A stretch of DNA of 64,000 nucleotides from an uncultured Bacteroidota bacterium. GTDB taxonomy: Bacteria > Bacteroidota > Bacteroidia > Chitinophagales > Chitinophagaceae. Below are positions 3,038-10,796 of this stretch, piece by piece (positions within the stretch are counted from its first letter, which is position 1; every line of letters begins with the position of its first letter). A model generated the notes under the pieces. It was not told the DNA's origin. It did not search any database and was given only the letters and a program-made list of their open reading frames with translations. The DNA is taken from positions 1 through 64,000 of the forward strand of contig CAILLK010000128.1 in the NCBI GenBank assembly GCA_903835005.1, read 5' to 3'. Made by a program: the position numbers and the translations under genes.

Positions 3038-3763
3038 TTATTTCAGTTCCGCATCTTCAATCAATACTTCGAATAAGTAACCATAACCGAAGTCCTTATT
3101 CAAAACGACTTTACCCTCAAGGGTTACTATATCGCCGTTTTTAACCGTAGCTGCCGAAGTTATTGTAAGATCGAATTTTCCGTTATTTTCTGTGCCATCC
3201 TGCAGGTGTATCCAGTTTTTGTTCATGATCTCAGCGCTGAATTTGGTTACCTGGCCTTTTATTTTCACAGTTTTACCAGCATAAGAATCCTTCCTGGAAA
3301 ACAGTTCCGCAATGGTAATGCAATCTTTCGGAACGACTATTTTGATATCCTTTTTCACTTCTGGTGCCGCTTTGCGCGTGTAAGGCTGCGAACCTGTTTG
3401 CCCGCCATGAGGATTAGCGGCAACAGCGGGTTTGCCGCCTATTGGTTCGGTGCTCACACCACCCAGAAACAGTACTAAATCAAAAGTGCGGTGCAGCTCC
3501 TTACTTTCAAACTGCTGCATGGGCAGGCCTTCCGAGTAATAATAAGTATCGCCGGCCAGCGCCTGCATAGATGGCACCGCCAGCCATTTCAATGAATCTG
3601 ATTCTTTTACATGCAGGTAAGTATAGTTGGATGTCTGTATTACCTCCGTAACAACTACTTTATGGCTGGCGATGTGTTTGCCATCAGGTATTCTTGCCAC
3701 GGAGGCCTGGGTCGTTAAAACAACTAATGGTATAACGACTGTTAAAAATGATATGATCTTCAT
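3038..3763 (-). CDS. Secreted OB-fold (nucleic-acid-binding-like) protein
   Basis: 241 residues with a Sec signal of about 20 residues. The N-terminal half (25-100) carries a small beta-rich domain ending in WLAVPSMQALAGDTYYYSEG, a pattern seen beside periplasmic OB-fold proteins. After a flexible Gly/Ala/Pro linker, residues 150-240 form an OB-fold of the tRNA-anti-like type (GKTVKIKGQVTKFSAEI, NWIHLQDGT, GDIVTLEGKVVL). Proteins of this kind (NrfJ-like) often lie beside cytochrome or copper genes. Here the gene is divergent from the multiheme operon that begins at 4021, so a link is possible but unproven. Confidence 0.65.
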   Translation of the reverse strand: MKIISFLTVVIPLVVLTTQASVARIPDGKHIASHKVVVTEVIQTSNYTYLHVKESDSLKWLAVPSMQALAGDTYYYSEGLPMQQFESKELHRTFDLVLFLGGVSTEPIGGKPAVAANPHGGQTGSQPYTRKAAPEVKKDIKIVVPKDCITIAELFSRKDSYAGKTVKIKGQVTKFSAEIMNKNWIHLQDGTENNGKFDLTITSAATVKNGDIVTLEGKVVLNKDFGYGYLFEVLIEDAELK

Positions 3764-3877
3764 TATATGAGTATTTAAAGGAACTACCGGAATTGATCTT
3801 TTCCCGGTACAATATTACATCGGCATCTATATTTCATGGATGAAAAATGTCATGTTTTTTGATGATTAAGGTCATTA

Positions 3878-3905
3878 TTTGCAGGCTCCGCCATAGATAC
3901 TTTTA
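3878..3905 (+). promoter_or_regulatory. Candidate promoter of the multiheme operon
   Basis: TTTG at 3878-3881 and TACTTTTA at 3898-3905, one mismatch from the Bacteroidota -7 consensus TAnnTTTG, with 16 bases between them. It is followed by a leader of about 110 bases before the ATG at 4021. Confidence 0.35.
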
Positions 3906-4020
3906 CACCTGTTTTACAAGAAAAAATGAATCATTGCCGGGAATAATTAAGCGAAACATAATTAAACAACTACCCGGTTGCCAGGCTAAAAACTATATTC
4001 TAAAAGTAAAAACCGAACGG

Positions 4021-5112
4021 ATGAGAAATACAAGAGGTAGTACAATTATAATAATATTCCTGCTGGGTGTCTTTTCTGTTTTTGCTACTTCATGTGCCAG
4101 TTTTATGCACAAGAAAGCAAAAATAAAAAAGACAGAGGCCATATTTTACCCGCCGCTGCCCGATACCGCGCACCTGCAATATCTCACCAGCATAAGTGGC
4201 AGTGACTTTATGGGCAAGCGCACAAAATTTGCCACCTTTATTATGGGGGCTGAAGATGTTTCGAATATGGTAAAGCCATACGGAATGAACATCAGCAACG
4301 GAAAGCTGTATATATGCGACCCCGGAATAGGAGGGCTTGAAGTAATAGATTTCAAAAACAACAAGTACAGCAACTTCACTCCGGGAAGTACCGGGCAGCT
4401 GAAGTCGCCGCTCAACTGCTTTGTTGATAAAAATGACTTTCTATATGTAGCTGATCCGGGCAGGCATGAGCTGGTGCTTTACGACAGCCTGGGAAATTAT
4501 ACCGGGAAAATTACAGATACCGGAAACTTCAAGCCAACCGATGTAATGATTGATGGTGATGAACTGTGGGTAACCAATCCGGACAACCACAGGCTTAATA
4601 TCTATGATAAACATACCAAACAGTTGTTGCGCTATTTTGCCGAGGACTACGGCCCCGGTGATGATGGTTTTTTATACTCGCCCTACAACATTTTTATTAC
4701 TGCCGATATAATATATATAACCGATTTTGGAGATTTTAAAATCAAGAAATTCGACCGGTCGGGTAAATTCCTGTCTTCAATAGGCAGTTATGGCACCGGT
4801 GTAGGTCAGTTTGTAAGGCCCAAGGGAATAGCCTGCGACAGGGATGGTATTCTTTATGTGGTAGATGCGGGTTTTGAAAACGCCCAGATGTTCAATGAAA
4901 AAGGGCAGTTGCTCATGTATTTCGGAGGGCCCTACAAGGGTCCCGGCGACATGTGGCTGCCGGCAAAGGTTATTGTTGATTATGATAACCTGGATTATTT
5001 CAGAAAGTATGTCGACCCTAAATATAGTCTCAACTACCTGGTAATTGTATCCAATCAATACGGGCCCGACAAGATCAATATTTACGGAGCGATATCACCG
5101 GTGAAGAACTAA
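4021..5112 (+). CDS. NHL-repeat beta-propeller lipoprotein, first gene of the multiheme operon
   Basis: 363 residues. The ATG at 4021 is chosen because it opens a lipoprotein signal (IIIIFLLGVFSVFATSC, Cys25 as lipobox Cys); the frame runs further upstream without a plausible start. The mature protein is a run of NHL-type blades: KLYICDPGIGGLEVID, FLYVADPGRHELVLYD, ELWVTNPDNHRLNIYD, IIYITDFGDFKIKKFD, ILYVVDAGFENAQMFN. NHL propellers are binding scaffolds without known redox activity; NHL-repeat genes also lie beside outer-membrane multiheme cytochromes in Geobacter. The stop is followed 9 bases later by the next operon gene. It is probably anchored in the outer or inner membrane facing the periplasm or the outside, as a scaffold for the cytochrome complex (inference). 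Confidence 0.85.
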   Translation: MRNTRGSTIIIIFLLGVFSVFATSCASFMHKKAKIKKTEAIFYPPLPDTAHLQYLTSISGSDFMGKRTKFATFIMGAEDVSNMVKPYGMNISNGKLYICDPGIGGLEVIDFKNNKYSNFTPGSTGQLKSPLNCFVDKNDFLYVADPGRHELVLYDSLGNYTGKITDTGNFKPTDVMIDGDELWVTNPDNHRLNIYDKHTKQLLRYFAEDYGPGDDGFLYSPYNIFITADIIYITDFGDFKIKKFDRSGKFLSSIGSYGTGVGQFVRPKGIACDRDGILYVVDAGFENAQMFNEKGQLLMYFGGPYKGPGDMWLPAKVIVDYDNLDYFRKYVDPKYSLNYLVIVSNQYGPDKINIYGAISPVKN

Positions 5113-5121
5113 ACTGATAAG

Positions 5122-7449
5122 ATGAAGAAAAAGCCAAATAATAGTGTAGCTTATACCATAAGTATAATACTGATTACATTGTTCTTTGGTTGCACTGTAG
5201 AACAAACACATAAGACTCTTGTATTCTTTTTTGACGGCGTAGATCAGGTTATTTTTCACAACGACTACCTGTCGCATGATTCACTGGGGCAGATAGCAGC
5301 CGCCAAAAGAGAGGCTTTACTTAAAAAGAACAGGCCCGATATGTGTGTGCATAAACCCTATAAAGAGAAGAAATGTGAAGAGTGCCACACACCCGACAAG
5401 CGCCTCATTATGCCAATGCCGGATCTGTGCTTTAAATGCCATACCAGTTTTGCCAAAACATACGCTGTTGTGCATGGTCCGGTAGCGGCAGGAGCATGCC
5501 TTAACTGCCACAACCAGCATTCATCAAAATACCCGAAACTACTTATCAGGCAAGGGCAGCAGATATGCGTTTACTGTCACAACCCATCACTTGTTTTTGC
5601 TTCAAAGGTGCACAGGGATATTGAAGATGCAGAATGCACAATGTGCCATAATCCGCATGGGGGCAAGAGCAGGTATATGCTTAAGGACAACATTTCGAAA
5701 GATGCCAACCGGATAGCGCTGATGGACGAACTGACCTACAGGCATCTGTATGGCCAGATATACTGTAAAACACCCGGAGATGTGAATCACATCATGGAGA
5801 TATACATTTTGGACGAGAAGGGTAATACTGTGGCTACTGTTCATCCGGATGCCGCCGGTAAATTCTTCCTCACTAATCTGCATCCCGACCAGAATTATAC
5901 TTTCAGATTTAAAAAGGATTTCCCGGATTGCAGGATTAATGTTACGGATAACAATGGATCACTGCTCTATGTGATCCAGAAAAACAAGAAAGGCAATTAT
6001 GCGTTCGATAAGAATGCTTACGAAACCGTGCACAATGCGCTGAATGATGCCCATTACCTGGGCGATACCTCTTTGCTGCATGCCGGACTGGCAAATGTAG
6101 CGCCGGTAGCGGAAAATACGCTCAGAGATACTGCTGGCCCGCTCACGTTTGGTACCAAACAGTTAGCCGATACCTCTGGTCATCCCGCGAATGCAGAACC
6201 GGTAACTGCCGTGCAAAGGGGTAAGATTATCGTTACATCGCTGCCCGGGAATGACGATACTAAGGAATCAATAAATAAAGGGCCAGATACTATTGTGACT
6301 GCTGTACCACAACCGGCTGTAAACAAAGTGACCGATACCGCTGCTTATAAAGGAAAGATTGTGGTTAAAGAACTTCCCGGTGATGTGCCCCCGGAGGAAT
6401 TGCTGCATAAAGAACCAGGTAATGCTGCTGCCAAAGGCGACCAGACTTCAATAAATAAAGTAAACGATACAGCAGCTTATAAAGGAAAGATTGTTGTTAA
6501 AGAACTTCCCGGTAATGTGCCTTTGCAGCAGCTTATTGATTCAAATAAGGCTGCAGGCAGGGTCACAAATAGTATTGCACAAGACAGTACTTTATCGCAG
6601 GGGGCGGTAGTACAGAAAGCATGGTTGCCGGATCAGAAACCACAGGAGGGAAATGCTAAACAAAGCAAAATAGTGGTTACCACACTGCCCGATACAATTG
6701 AAGTAAAGGCAATGGACCGTTTCCGGACTATGGCCGGAGCTCAGGAAGTGGTACATAAACTGGAGGCAGGAGGTATGAAGCTGACAGATCTTACTTCCCA
6801 ACTGGCCAACTACCTGGATGGCAACGTAATATGTGTAATTAACGCCGCAGGCGACCTGATTGAAGTGACTCCTGTAAATGCAAAGGGTGAATTCTACCTC
6901 TACGATTTCCTGTATTACAGGTTACTCCTTCCGGAAAAGAAACAGGGTATCATCAGTCAGACAATATACATCAATGATAAGATGGAGGTCATAGAAACTA
7001 TAAATAAAAGACTGGTCAACGGACATTATATATATGTAGCCAACAGTAAGGAACAACCTGCCAACAGAGCAGTTGTGAAAATATACACCAATAAAGACAA
7101 TGCCGTTTTGTTTTCATCAGTTTATTTCGAAGAAGGCCGGTCAGCAATTACAAAGGAGGGAATCAAGGCGCTCGATAAAGTAGTTGATTACCTTCTGCAG
7201 AACCCGAACGCTGATATTTATTTGCTGGCTCATGCCCTTTCTATGGGTACTTCCGGATTCAACAGGCAGCTTGCTGAAAAACGTTCAGAGGCTGCAATAA
7301 ATTATCTGACTTCAAAAGGAGTAAAACTGAACAGGATAAAGCTTAAAGGAAGCAGGAAAAACGGAGTGGTCGGAGAATTTGAAACAACGCTCGGTTCGGC
7401 CGAAGAAGACCAGAAAAACCGGAGAGTAGATGTGTATATAAAATTGTAA
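5122..7449 (+). CDS. Multiheme (5 x CXXCH) lipoprotein fused to a C-terminal OmpA domain
   Basis: 775 residues. Lipoprotein signal with Cys24 (TLFFGC). Five CXXCH c-type heme motifs lie at residues 85 (CEECH), 103 (CFKCH), 126 (CLNCH), 149 (CVYCH) and 172 (CTMCH), with the paired spacing and the NPHGG/NQHSS signatures of the doubled-CXXCH family. Residues 210-280 look like a small carboxypeptidase-regulatory-type beta domain. Residues 365-530 hold four degenerate copies of GKIVVxxLPG in a Pro/Thr-rich linker. A second beta domain (about 570-640) precedes an OmpA/MotB-like peptidoglycan-binding domain (SSVYFEEGRSAI near 665, NRRVDVYIKL at the end). It would tie heme groups to the cell wall within the same envelope assembly as its neighbours. 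The combination is unusual. Confidence 0.88.
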   Translation: MKKKPNNSVAYTISIILITLFFGCTVEQTHKTLVFFFDGVDQVIFHNDYLSHDSLGQIAAAKREALLKKNRPDMCVHKPYKEKKCEECHTPDKRLIMPMPDLCFKCHTSFAKTYAVVHGPVAAGACLNCHNQHSSKYPKLLIRQGQQICVYCHNPSLVFASKVHRDIEDAECTMCHNPHGGKSRYMLKDNISKDANRIALMDELTYRHLYGQIYCKTPGDVNHIMEIYILDEKGNTVATVHPDAAGKFFLTNLHPDQNYTFRFKKDFPDCRINVTDNNGSLLYVIQKNKKGNYAFDKNAYETVHNALNDAHYLGDTSLLHAGLANVAPVAENTLRDTAGPLTFGTKQLADTSGHPANAEPVTAVQRGKIIVTSLPGNDDTKESINKGPDTIVTAVPQPAVNKVTDTAAYKGKIVVKELPGDVPPEELLHKEPGNAAAKGDQTSINKVNDTAAYKGKIVVKELPGNVPLQQLIDSNKAAGRVTNSIAQDSTLSQGAVVQKAWLPDQKPQEGNAKQSKIVVTTLPDTIEVKAMDRFRTMAGAQEVVHKLEAGGMKLTDLTSQLANYLDGNVICVINAAGDLIEVTPVNAKGEFYLYDFLYYRLLLPEKKQGIISQTIYINDKMEVIETINKRLVNGHYIYVANSKEQPANRAVVKIYTNKDNAVLFSSVYFEEGRSAITKEGIKALDKVVDYLLQNPNADIYLLAHALSMGTSGFNRQLAEKRSEAAINYLTSKGVKLNRIKLKGSRKNGVVGEFETTLGSAEEDQKNRRVDVYIKL

Positions 7450-7482
7450 CAAAAGAGATTTTTATAGATTAAAGTAACTGGA

Positions 7483-9444
7483 ATGCGCCAACTGAAAAAA
7501 ATATTTACTTCACTTTTTCTGCTCTTGCCGGTTGTCAGCTTTGCCCAGCAAAGCTTGTTATCGCTTGGCTTGTGGAATATCAGCGCACTATCGGGAGAAC
7601 TGAAACTGGGGGGCTTGTACGGAGGTGGCGATATTAATACTTATGGCATCAATAATAAACTGACGGAAACAAACTATTACGGCGGGCTTTACGTGAAAAC
7701 AAGCAGCTTTATATGGAATCCCAGCTTCCTTACGGTTGATGTGGATGGCGGTTATTATCCTGAATCAAGACAGGACCTTTACCTTGTTTCGCCCGACCTG
7801 TACAATGTGGTAAATACTCAAAAACTCCATATCGGAGCCACTCTCTTTCCCCGGAAAATAATCAGCCTGAGCGGCCACATCAACTGGGATGACAGCTATG
7901 ATAACAGGGAGAACCTAACCGATATACGAACCAACAGCAAAACTTATGGCGGCTCATTGTCTTTCAGGAATAAATTCCTGCCACTGACCATGAATTATAA
8001 TCAGAGTAAATGGGACAGCAGGGAAGTACTCACAGGCCGTGATTTTAGTTATGATCAGAATAATTTTGAGGCCCGTATAAATAAGTCTTTTACAAGAAAG
8101 GATAATAATAACTGGTCTTATACGCATTACGATTATACAACCAGGCAGTATACAGCAGCTACAATAAACAACCGGTCGGACAACCTGATGCTTCAGGATG
8201 GCTTCTTTCTCGATTCTGCCCGCAGGTCAATGTTTAATTCAAATATCCTGGGTACAGCACAACGCGGCAACGACAGTTTCAACCAGTTCAGGGCCAATGA
8301 AAACCTGTTCTTAAGGTTGCCTTACCTGCTTACGTTAAATTCCGGCTATACCTTTTATTACCTGCAGCAATTCCCCGAAAAACTGCAGCAGAATACATTT
8401 AACACCTTGCTGGGCCACCAGTTGTTCCAAAGCCTTCATTCGGGAGTTTTGTATGAGTACAATGGTGCCCTGGAGTCTTCTTATAATGAGACAAATAATA
8501 AGGTTGGTCTGGAACTGAACTATACCAAGAAAACATTTGCCGATGGCCTGCTGAATATGCAATACAGTTATTACCGCATTGCAGAAAAGAGGTCGAGCTC
8601 TGATGCATTGCTTCTTATCCAGAATGAACTCTATATCCTGTCTGACAGGGTGCTGCTCAAAAGGCCCTATGTAGATCAGGGTACATTTATACTCAAAGAT
8701 TCTACCCAAACCATAATATACCAGTCGGGAGTTGATTATACCCTGAATCTGATAGGAAGTTTTCTGGAAATCCAGCGCATACCGGGCGGGCTTATTCCCG
8801 ATAACGGGCGGGTATATGCATTTTATACAGCCACCCAGCCGGGATCATACAGCTATAATATCAACCAGAATAATTTTTCAATCAATTTCTCAGTCTTTAA
8901 AGGGCTCATTGATGTTTATTACCGTACTGTGCGCACAGATTTTACTCAGATACACCGCGCCGATAACCTGCTGCTTGATTACCTCACCGATGACCTTGTG
9001 GGTGGTAATTTGAAATATAAATCTGCTACACTTGGCGCTGAATATGATAATTACCAGAGCACCCTGGTTCCCTATACCATGATGCGGTATTTCTTCTCCT
9101 GGCAAGGCACTTATAATAATCACCTGGTATTTGCCATCAATGCCAACTACCGCGATTACAAAATGCCCACCGAGACGGAACACCGGCTGTTCGGAGACCT
9201 GAACGGAATGGCTTCCTATGCCATAAATGCAAAATCAAAATTTGACCTTACTCTGGGCTACCAGTCCCAGCAGGGTCAGCAGATCAATCTGGATTATCTT
9301 TCTTTAAGAGCTAAATATTCAACAATAATAAGGAAACTCACCTGTGTAGTTGGGGCCGATGCATACAACCGTGTGTATCTCGAAACCCAGAAAACCAATT
9401 ATGCAGGTATATATGTTCAGGTCATAAAAAGATTTAAATATTAG
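7483..9444 (+). CDS. Large outer-membrane beta-barrel protein of the multiheme operon
   Basis: 653 residues with a Sec signal ending in SFAQQ near residue 22. The mature chain alternates short hydrophobic/aromatic strands with polar turns throughout, is rich in Tyr, Asn and Thr, and ends in an aromatic residue (IKRFKY), all typical of an outer-membrane barrel of roughly 20 or more strands. No heme motif is present. Its position between two multiheme genes is like that of the MtrB/PioB/OmbB porins that sheath cytochromes across the outer membrane. Sequence similarity to those porins cannot be judged here, so the role is inferred from context. It is separated by 33 bases from the gene before and 5 from the gene after. 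Confidence 0.8.
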   Translation: MRQLKKIFTSLFLLLPVVSFAQQSLLSLGLWNISALSGELKLGGLYGGGDINTYGINNKLTETNYYGGLYVKTSSFIWNPSFLTVDVDGGYYPESRQDLYLVSPDLYNVVNTQKLHIGATLFPRKIISLSGHINWDDSYDNRENLTDIRTNSKTYGGSLSFRNKFLPLTMNYNQSKWDSREVLTGRDFSYDQNNFEARINKSFTRKDNNNWSYTHYDYTTRQYTAATINNRSDNLMLQDGFFLDSARRSMFNSNILGTAQRGNDSFNQFRANENLFLRLPYLLTLNSGYTFYYLQQFPEKLQQNTFNTLLGHQLFQSLHSGVLYEYNGALESSYNETNNKVGLELNYTKKTFADGLLNMQYSYYRIAEKRSSSDALLLIQNELYILSDRVLLKRPYVDQGTFILKDSTQTIIYQSGVDYTLNLIGSFLEIQRIPGGLIPDNGRVYAFYTATQPGSYSYNINQNNFSINFSVFKGLIDVYYRTVRTDFTQIHRADNLLLDYLTDDLVGGNLKYKSATLGAEYDNYQSTLVPYTMMRYFFSWQGTYNNHLVFAINANYRDYKMPTETEHRLFGDLNGMASYAINAKSKFDLTLGYQSQQGQQINLDYLSLRAKYSTIIRKLTCVVGADAYNRVYLETQKTNYAGIYVQVIKRFKY

Positions 9445-9449
9445 CATTT

Positions 9450-10796
9450 ATGCGCTTCAGAATAAGTATAATATTGGTAATACTGGCTGGCGTTTATTTC
9501 AGCGCCAGCGGGCAGATAGATACCAGCAAGGGAAGTTGTGCCAGTACCGGTTGCCATGGCAATCTGGTAGCCCAGGAGGTGGTGCATGATGCACTGAAAA
9601 GAGGATGCGATAAATGCCACCAGAGCAATGGCCAGCAGCATCCGCAGAAAAATGTGAAGACATTTTCACTGGTGACCAATATTCCCCAGCTATGCTACAA
9701 ATGCCATGATGAGAACAATACCATGAGGGTGGTGCATCCGCCAGTGCAGAAGGGCAATTGCCTGGAGTGCCATAATCCGCACGGTGGCCCGGAAGCTTAT
9801 ATTCTCAAAATAAACCCGACAGGTGATTTATGTGCCAAATGCCATACATTGGAATCGGCTAAGAAAAAGTTCAAGCATGAGCCTGTTGCCAAGGGCGAAT
9901 GTGTGAAATGCCATGATCCGCACCAGTCTGAAACAGACAGGCTGCTGGTACGCGACATCCCTGCACTTTGCACCAAATGCCACAAGCCACAGGCCGAAGA
10001 ACTGAAGATGGATTATGTACATCCGCCTTTTCAGAATAACTGCCTCAATTGTCATAACCAGCACAGCTCAAATGAAGAAAAACTGCTCGACCTGACCCCT
10101 CAGAACCTGTGTCTCTATTGCCACGATGATATGCAGAAGAAGATAGACAAAGCTACCCTGGTGCATGGCGCCATTACCGAAAAGAGGTCCTGCATCAACT
10201 GCCACTCACCCCATGCATCCAACCAGAAAAGATTTCTGATCAAGGATACTAAAACATTATGCCTGAGCTGCCACGACCGTACCTATGTAAGCGGCACCCG
10301 GAAAATCAACAATATTGCCCAGACCTTGCAGAAGAGCAAATCGGTACATGCTGCCATTGAGAAAGTGGGCTGCTCAGGCTGTCATGACCCTCATGCCTCA
10401 TCCAATCCGTTCCTGCTCAATAAGACCTTCCCGTCGGGATCGTATACACCGGCAGTAAAGGAGAATTTCGCATTGTGTTTCACCTGCCATAAGAGTGAGA
10501 TCATTGAAAAGGCCGCAACAACCACTGCTACCGGTTTCCGCAACGGCGATAAAAACCTGCATATGGTGCATATTAACGGTGAGAAAGGCAGAAGTTGTGT
10601 ATTATGTCATAATCCGCACGGCTCGCCCAATGACCACCTGATCAATGAGAAAACTCAGTTTGGCGGATGGGAAATGCCATTGAAATACCAGTCAACCGCC
10701 ACCGGAGGTTCATGTGCACCGGGCTGTCATGCCGAAAGGAAGTATGACCGGACAGTGGTGATACCTGCCAGCCCTGAGGTTGTGCCAAAGAAATAG
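9450..10796 (+). CDS. Periplasmic multiheme c-type cytochrome, 15 heme-type motifs (doubled-CXXCH family)
   Basis: 448 residues with a Sec signal (about 1-21). Thirteen canonical CXXCH motifs are spread over the whole chain: CDKCH, CYKCH, CLECH, CAKCH, CVKCH, CTKCH, CLNCH, CLYCH, CINCH, CLSCH, CSGCH, CFTCH and CVLCH. Two expanded motifs mark the ends: CX4CH at residues 30-36 and CX3CH at 422-427. The alternating xCxxCHxPH and LCxxCH pattern is that of the doubled-CXXCH family, with spare histidines (VHPP, VHG, VH) as likely distal heme ligands. It is long enough for a heme wire of the MtrA type inside or below the barrel encoded just upstream, and it is the last gene of the operon. Heme attachment would need the cytochrome c maturation machinery, which is not in this window. 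Confidence 0.92.
   Translation: MRFRISIILVILAGVYFSASGQIDTSKGSCASTGCHGNLVAQEVVHDALKRGCDKCHQSNGQQHPQKNVKTFSLVTNIPQLCYKCHDENNTMRVVHPPVQKGNCLECHNPHGGPEAYILKINPTGDLCAKCHTLESAKKKFKHEPVAKGECVKCHDPHQSETDRLLVRDIPALCTKCHKPQAEELKMDYVHPPFQNNCLNCHNQHSSNEEKLLDLTPQNLCLYCHDDMQKKIDKATLVHGAITEKRSCINCHSPHASNQKRFLIKDTKTLCLSCHDRTYVSGTRKINNIAQTLQKSKSVHAAIEKVGCSGCHDPHASSNPFLLNKTFPSGSYTPAVKENFALCFTCHKSEIIEKAATTTATGFRNGDKNLHMVHINGEKGRSCVLCHNPHGSPNDHLINEKTQFGGWEMPLKYQSTATGGSCAPGCHAERKYDRTVVIPASPEVVPKK

Follow-up and report, generated by a model that had tools for sequence, protein, structure and literature searches.

A predicted porin–cytochrome conduit with a new outer-membrane barrel family and co-occurring OmcE-type cytochromes in Bacteroidota

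Introduction

Extracellular respiration is known chiefly from Shewanella, Geobacter and their like. In the MtrAB, MtoAB, PioAB and DmsEF systems, the gene for a large outer-membrane barrel adjoins that for an MtrA/DmsE-type multiheme cytochrome that is secreted. In the Geobacter porin–cytochrome (Pcc) systems OmbB-OmaB-OmcB and Ext, a single operon encodes a barrel and two cytochromes, one of them periplasmic, a layout described for Omb/Oma/Omc in the available part of the source (PMC6344600). Here, we analyze a 64,000-nucleotide stretch of DNA (the window) from an uncultured Bacteroidota bacterium of the family Chitinophagaceae (contig CAILLK010000128.1), in which a four-gene operon encodes a predicted outer-membrane barrel, a 15-heme cytochrome of MtrA/DmsE kinship and two lipoproteins. 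The operon probably works like a porin–cytochrome conduit.

An operon of the SEEP-SRB1 partners of anaerobic methanotrophic archaea (ANME) encodes a six-bladed propeller and has been proposed for extracellular electron transfer, as far as the available text of the source goes (PMC5539420). Putative novel conduits are reported from Bacteroidetes metagenome-assembled genomes (MAGs), among them one that combines six multiheme cytochromes with a single barrel, in the accessible portions of two papers (PMC6344600, PMC8258643), and a 2014 survey of pcc clusters does not name Bacteroidetes in its main text, insofar as that text was available (PMC4245776). In the sections available to us, structure 7TFS is described as the OmcE filament, in which one heme ligand is shared between subunits (PMC12954529, PMC9473688), and OmcE as extensively glycosylated (PMC9473688); the helix has a reported rise of ~34 Å (PMC12954529). 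No OmcE-type cytochromes tied to Bacteroidota stood out in the literature searched, though two papers mention OmcE, nanowire and Bacteroidota together. Three elements were not met with in the excerpts of the literature examined: the family to which the barrel belongs, the four-gene unit as delimited here and the link of this unit to relatives of OmcE.

Results

A Four-Gene Operon Pairs a Predicted Barrel with a 15-Heme Cytochrome

The four genes lie on the forward strand at 4021-5112, 5122-7449, 7483-9444 and 9450-10796, with intergenic gaps of 9, 33 and 5 bases. This arrangement, the 653-residue barrel and the 5 + 15 heme motifs agree with the initial annotation of this DNA, which had proposed an independently built trans-envelope electron conduit.

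The last gene (9450-10796) encodes P0004, a cytochrome of 448 amino acids in which 13 CXXCH, one CX3CH and one CX4CH motif account for all 30 cysteines, and whose 31 histidines are sufficient for 15 bis-His hemes. The motifs are not a product of chance, because 5000 shuffles of the protein's residues gave a mean of 0.13 CXXCH and a maximum of 3. The best long curated model for P0004 is that of the DmsE family (TIGR03508; E 6.7e-44), at 150.3 bits, which is below the model's cut-off of 192.2; the other scanned multiheme proteins of the genome score 20-48 bits with the same model, and 7/7 members of the profile built from the MtrA-like cytochromes (A2) match it at E<=0.001. P0004 also aligns with chain A of Protein Data Bank entry 6r2q (6r2q_A) over 207 residues (E 6.1e-15; 2.4e-15 in a profile search). 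The title of this entry is that of the Mtr complex and the molecule name of chain A reads 'Cystathionine beta-synthase'; we take chain A to be MtrA. By these homologies P0004 is kin to the known conduit cytochromes, and the system is not wholly independent because its cytochrome is related to MtrA and DmsE; the proposal of an independent construction holds at most for the barrel. The cytochrome is probably the wire inside the barrel.

For the barrel, P0003 (653 amino acids; 7483-9444), neither Pfam nor NCBIfam yielded a family at E<=1, and the PDB sequences gave no match at E<=10. Its AlphaFold2 model (mean predicted local distance difference test score, pLDDT, 86.1; predicted template modelling score, pTM, 0.64) has ~28 long strands. 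The MtrB/PioB-type barrel (6r2q_B) has 26 strands. No MtrB/PioB match emerged from Pfam and NCBIfam searches of the nine barrel homologs, apart from stray hits to single members of the set; the MtrB_PioB profile (PF11854) had no match in the proteins of this genome or of the relative G007, and in class genomes gave short, weak matches in 11/385, three of them over the cut-off. Membership of the MtrB/PioB family is therefore not supported by sequence comparison, and the barrel appears to be a new family as judged by Pfam, NCBIfam and PDB sequences, its separation from the OmbB and Ext barrels being drawn by named families alone. Between two sets of strands, residues 375-452 (window ~8605-8838) form a small, well-conserved inserted domain.

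The first gene (4021-5112) encodes a lipoprotein of 363 amino acids with an NHL beta-propeller (E 6.5e-10) and the lipobox ATSC. Its open frame starts at 3847; we prefer the ATG at 4021 as the start because the lipobox then falls near the N terminus. The second gene (5122-7449) encodes a lipoprotein of 775 amino acids with a lipobox-like FFGC, five CXXCH motifs in a heme module at residues 85-176 (5374-5649) and a C-terminal OmpA-type, peptidoglycan-binding domain (PF00691; E 1.8e-11) at residues 668-743 (7123-7350). We regard the NHL lipoprotein as a probable scaffold or assembly factor and the pentaheme lipoprotein as a probable periplasmic electron feeder. Four KIVVxxLP-like near-repeats, at residues 368, 412, 456 and 516, occur in the linker that joins the heme module to the OmpA domain (lipoprotein residues 368-523).

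The Gene Order Is Conserved in Two Classes of the Phylum

Barrel homologs were sought in samples of the class, phylum and order, which overlap, and among named contigs. Genes in relatives were called as the longest non-overlapping open frames from the first start codon, so that the positions of starts, and any gap measured from them, are approximate. The class search gave a match in 6/395 genomes, including our own and a marginal one (G186); a profile search of the phylum gave matches in 6/395, full length only in our own and G517; the order search found 2/396 genomes, our own and G946; and the named-contig search found one relative, locus L011, whose barrel is 63% identical. Full-length barrels thus amount to nine loci in eight genomes: our own, G1107 (L011), G946, G007 (twice), G064, G100, G271 and G517. 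Matches in G186, G457, G507, G511 and G531, each covering less than 1/5 of the query, were of the chance type and were excluded before counting; no CXXCH proteins were found in the neighborhoods of the G457, G507 and G511 matches or in the short flanks of that in G186.

An MtrA-like gene directly follows the barrel gene at all nine full-length loci, with gaps of <=12 bases, and this adjacency and co-conservation of barrel and multiheme cytochrome genes is the architecture of a conduit. The heme lipoprotein gene precedes the barrel at 8/8 loci and the NHL gene stands first of the four at 7/7 loci where the contig reaches; contig C25 of G007 is cut ~350 bases before the barrel, and C142 of G271 ends just before the expected NHL start. 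The order is kept in two classes of the phylum, and the genes stay together in relatives wherever they can be followed, as the initial annotation had anticipated.

The heme module is present in 8/8 homologs of the lipoprotein and the OmpA domain in 2/8, those of our own species and L011. The OmpA tether was accordingly rejected as a defining feature, and with it the earlier suggestion that a cell-wall-tethered heme module characterizes the system. Numbers of heme motifs in the MtrA-like cytochrome and the lipoprotein are 15/5 in our own genome, G1107 and G946, 9/9 in G007:C9, G100, G271 and G064, and 11/5 in G517; the cytochrome of G007:C25 has 15, no lipoprotein being visible on that contig. 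In the two larger groups a long cytochrome goes with a short lipoprotein wire and vice versa, as if the two shared the periplasmic span, a trade-off that G517 fits poorly.

Relatives of OmcE and a Quinone Module Accompany the Conduit

A cytochrome of 581 amino acids in which 12 heme motifs are found (P0007) and two tetraheme cytochromes (P0005 and P0006) are encoded on another contig of the same genome (C85, locus L030). The same locus has genes for an NHL protein, a large repeat protein, an NrfD protein, a 304-amino acid membrane protein, a monoheme cytochrome c and a 4Fe-4S protein, the last of which is DsrO-like (E 3.5e-53, under the cut-off of the model). About 12 kb further on come a regulator of the Crp family and a heme-attachment protein, a ResB-CcsA fusion; two more cytochrome-assembly genes lie elsewhere, so that the heme maturation genes expected by the initial annotation are present. 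The large repeat protein (1578 amino acids; L030:8139-12875, reverse strand) ends, by reading, in what is probably a sorting tail for type IX secretion. Its gene separates those of the tetrahemes from the quinone module, and in L088 the beginning of a similar protein occupies the same place. A further cytochrome of this genome, with seven CXXCH fused to tetratricopeptide repeats (TPR), is encoded away from the operon (L018:16025-17980, reverse strand).

Homology to OmcE over its full length is found for P0005, which aligns with nearly the whole of 7tfs_A (E 5.1e-13), and for residues 5-209 of P0007 (E 1.8e-38); P0006 aligns with P0005 and P0007. The profile of this family (A4) matched 7tfs_A at E 1.6e-49 and 9yuq_N at 6.3e-39, and 6i5b_A weakly (0.0053). 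Invariant in 7/7 aligned relatives are the four CXXCH histidines and four further histidines (H32, H63, H159 and H210 in P0005), for which the aligned OmcE sequence has counterparts and which we take as putative distal heme ligands. P0007 carries eight more heme motifs after its OmcE domain. From sequence it is possible that these relatives of OmcE form filaments.

P0007 relatives occur in 8/8 genomes with a full-length barrel, seven of which have the 12-heme form. In the class sample they occur in 9/395 genomes, comprising 5/5 with a full-length barrel and 4/390 others (Fisher p 1.6e-9 by genome, the genomes not being independent; 2.8e-5 by genus, 3/3 vs 4/194). G186 is counted here as barrel-less and has no P0007 relative; counting it as a barrel genome would give 5/6.

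The two sets of genes are also linked. A gene for a tetraheme relative lies directly upstream of the NHL gene at 4/7 loci (L013, L014, L016 and L041, in G007, G100, G064 and G517), in G064 as only the last 48 residues at a contig end. OmcE relatives share the conduit's contig in four genomes, in G517 and G100 together with the 12-heme gene. In G517, ~9 kb (L041) holds an NHL gene followed by genes for the 12-heme protein, a tetraheme, a second NHL protein, a pentaheme lipoprotein, the barrel and an 11-heme cytochrome. One contig of G100 (L083 and L014) presents, over ~25 kb, NrfD, a relative of the 304-amino acid protein, a monoheme c, an NHL protein, the 12-heme protein and a Crp regulator; then two TPR/mannosyltransferase-like proteins (one of them scanned), a tetraheme and an NHL protein; and finally a heme lipoprotein, the barrel, a 9-heme cytochrome, an OB-like protein and a ResB-CcsA fusion. 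The L011 contig joins the four conduit genes with those for a monoheme c, an Fe-S protein (90% identical to ours), NrfD (83%), a relative of the 304-amino acid protein, an OB-like protein and ResB-CcsA (73%), and with a gene that reads as Crp-like. Relatives of the Fe-S and NrfD proteins (54-57%) are encoded on the contig of the second G007 barrel (C25). This co-occurrence and linkage make it likely that conduit and OmcE-type cytochromes form one pathway. Beside the second G007 barrel–cytochrome pair (L012) lies a cluster of several genes for NrfD, ferredoxin-like proteins and small cytochromes, which gives the impression of a stack of quinone modules.

Genes for TPR and O-mannosyltransferase-like membrane proteins, up to four in succession, lie by the OmcE-type genes or the conduit in L083, L084, L085, L087 and L040:15352-17214. 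O-mannosyltransferase-like genes are near the 12-heme gene in G100, G064, G271 and G128; those scanned (one protein each of G100, G271, G128 and, beside the conduit, G946) matched PMT_2 or TMTC, some below the curated cut-off, and those of G064 were assigned from the likeness of their first residues alone. They are possible filament glycosylation genes.

Neighbors of the Operon

Divergent from the operon, at 3038-3763 on the reverse strand, is a gene, absent from the initial annotation, for a secreted protein of 241 amino acids with a weak, OB-fold-like C-terminal match (tRNA_anti-like, below cut-off). Homologs adjoin the conduit at 5/7 loci with all four genes visible: our own, L011 (65% identical), L040 (48%), L013 (49%) and L014 (50%). 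None was seen beside the conduit in L016, a short contig, or in L041. Paralogs adjoin the OmcE-type cluster in our own genome, G946 and G1107, and the protein is a candidate for an unnamed accessory factor. The intergenic region (3764-4020) is a candidate promoter region partly conserved with L011 and L040, and no regulator site was identifiable in the conserved sequence.

Direction of Electron Flow and Other Functions

By its gene content our genome looks like that of a facultative aerobe, because it encodes heme-copper oxidases, an alternative-complex-III-like cluster (by reading) and a formate-dehydrogenase-type enzyme. The heme-copper oxidase family has three matches: two are strong, for subunit I, and the remaining one, which is weaker, has a monoheme gene as its neighbor and reads as NorBC-like. 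Molybdopterin oxidoreductases have two matches, neither adjoining the operon; the one over the family cut-off reads, from its sequence and neighbor, as a nicotinamide adenine dinucleotide (NAD)-linked formate-dehydrogenase-type subunit.

The oxidases and the alternative-complex-III-like cluster would suit the same conduit running inward, with Fe(II), a cathode or a partner cell as the electron source and the quinones and aerobic chain as the destination, in the manner of MtoAB or PioAB. Those two systems likewise have a barrel and an MtrA-like cytochrome without an MtrC-like gene in the operon, in the available part of the source (PMC6344600). OmcE, by contrast, comes from the metal reducer Geobacter, and we consider an inward conduit unlikely.

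Alternatively, the barrel could be a transporter of an unrelated kind, in which case the cytochromes would store or conduct electrons within the periplasm and not carry them across the outer membrane. The barrel has no sequence relation to known families, and MtrB and TonB receptors match its model equally well by Z; Pfam, however, finds no TonB plug domain in it, and an MtrA/DmsE-like gene follows it invariably and at close range, which makes this reading very improbable. That a DmsEF-type conduit feeds an extracellular molybdoenzyme reducing dimethyl sulfoxide (DMSO) or iodate, rather than a solid or filament, is suggested by the DmsE model match and is scarcely credible, as the sole molybdopterin enzyme over cut-off reads as of the formate-dehydrogenase type and no DmsA-like molybdoenzyme was seen with the conduit.

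Discussion

The trans-envelope conduit proposed for this operon is well supported by gene order, the barrel, the MtrA/DmsE-like cytochrome, the heme maturation genes and the co-occurring nanowire-family cytochromes. We think it probable that the operon is a porin–cytochrome conduit with a barrel of a new family, in a pathway from quinone to cell surface that possibly ends in OmcE-type filaments. In this pathway, the NrfD/4Fe-4S/monoheme c module encoded on the other contig would exchange electrons with the quinone pool; the pentaheme lipoprotein would pass periplasmic electrons to the 15-heme cytochrome, which, held in the barrel, would wire the periplasm to the cell surface; and the NHL lipoprotein would aid assembly. 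Outside the cell, the OmcE-family cytochromes (the two tetrahemes and the 12-heme P0007) would deliver electrons to a partner, or receive them from it, the partner being a solid, humic matter or a cell. The order of the electron steps and the assembly of cytochrome within barrel are our proposals, as are OmcE-type polymerization and the view that electrons on balance flow outward in a bacterium that is otherwise of the aerobic type.

Several observations weigh against this pathway. The case for a conduit consists of genes, their order, homologies, a barrel prediction and co-occurrence, and the direction of electrons cannot be set by sequence; the model of the barrel, as noted, resembles TonB receptors as closely as MtrB. 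The OmcE relatives of G007 are tetrahemes, with no 12-heme protein. Three of the five class-sample barrel genomes belong to one genus, and four genomes have OmcE relatives without a full-length barrel; the barrel profile matched in 0/4 of these, a search that had no positive control there, although a sister profile (A1) matched our own genome. In our own family (our locus, L011 and L040) an OB-like gene takes the place of the tetraheme gene upstream of NHL, and in our own genome the conduit and the OmcE-type cluster are on separate contigs. The 304-amino acid subunit of the quinone module, tried as a specific mark of the system, was rejected, being present also in 3/4 of the barrel-less OmcE genomes and missing in G517.

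A more specific idea is a complete respiratory chain from quinone to nanowire in some Bacteroidota, based on the new barrel family, in which P0007, with its OmcE domain and 8-heme tail, is an adaptor that docks glycosylated OmcE-type filaments onto the conduit. We put this forward as a tentative and rather doubtful proposal; if true, it would explain how cytochrome filaments join an outer-membrane conduit. More broadly, the operon supplies a defined, searchable gene set for extracellular respiration in the Bacteroidota, an abundant phylum seldom credited with it, and the group of relatives may be capable of respiration on extracellular solids. Its genetic tie to a nanowire-family cytochrome makes the connection of filament to cell testable in a new group.

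In its adjoining barrel and MtrA/DmsE-kind cytochrome genes, the operon resembles MtrAB, MtoAB, PioAB and DmsEF; it differs from them in a barrel outside the MtrB_PioB profile, in 15 (or 9 or 11) heme motifs instead of 10, and in having an extra heme lipoprotein and an NHL lipoprotein and no MtrC-like gene. With the Geobacter Pcc systems it shares a barrel and two cytochromes in one operon, whereas its barrel falls in no named Pfam or NCBIfam family, a comparison made at the level of such families rather than directly with OmbB or Ext, and its lipoprotein, given the OmpA domain, probably faces the periplasm in our own species. The Bacteroidetes MAG conduits can be compared with the four genes by description only, as the available text names no component families that could be matched (PMC6344600, PMC8258643). 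P0005 and P0007 residues 5-209 align with the OmcE filament protein (7TFS) and keep all eight conserved heme-type histidines, whereas P0007 carries its additional heme motifs; the likeness to a filament is one of sequences. Finally, the ANME-partner operon, in the available text, likewise combines a propeller gene with large cytochromes (16- and 26-heme) and a peptidyl-prolyl isomerase (PPIase), in a four-gene core that has no barrel (PMC5539420), whereas here propeller and barrel share one operon.

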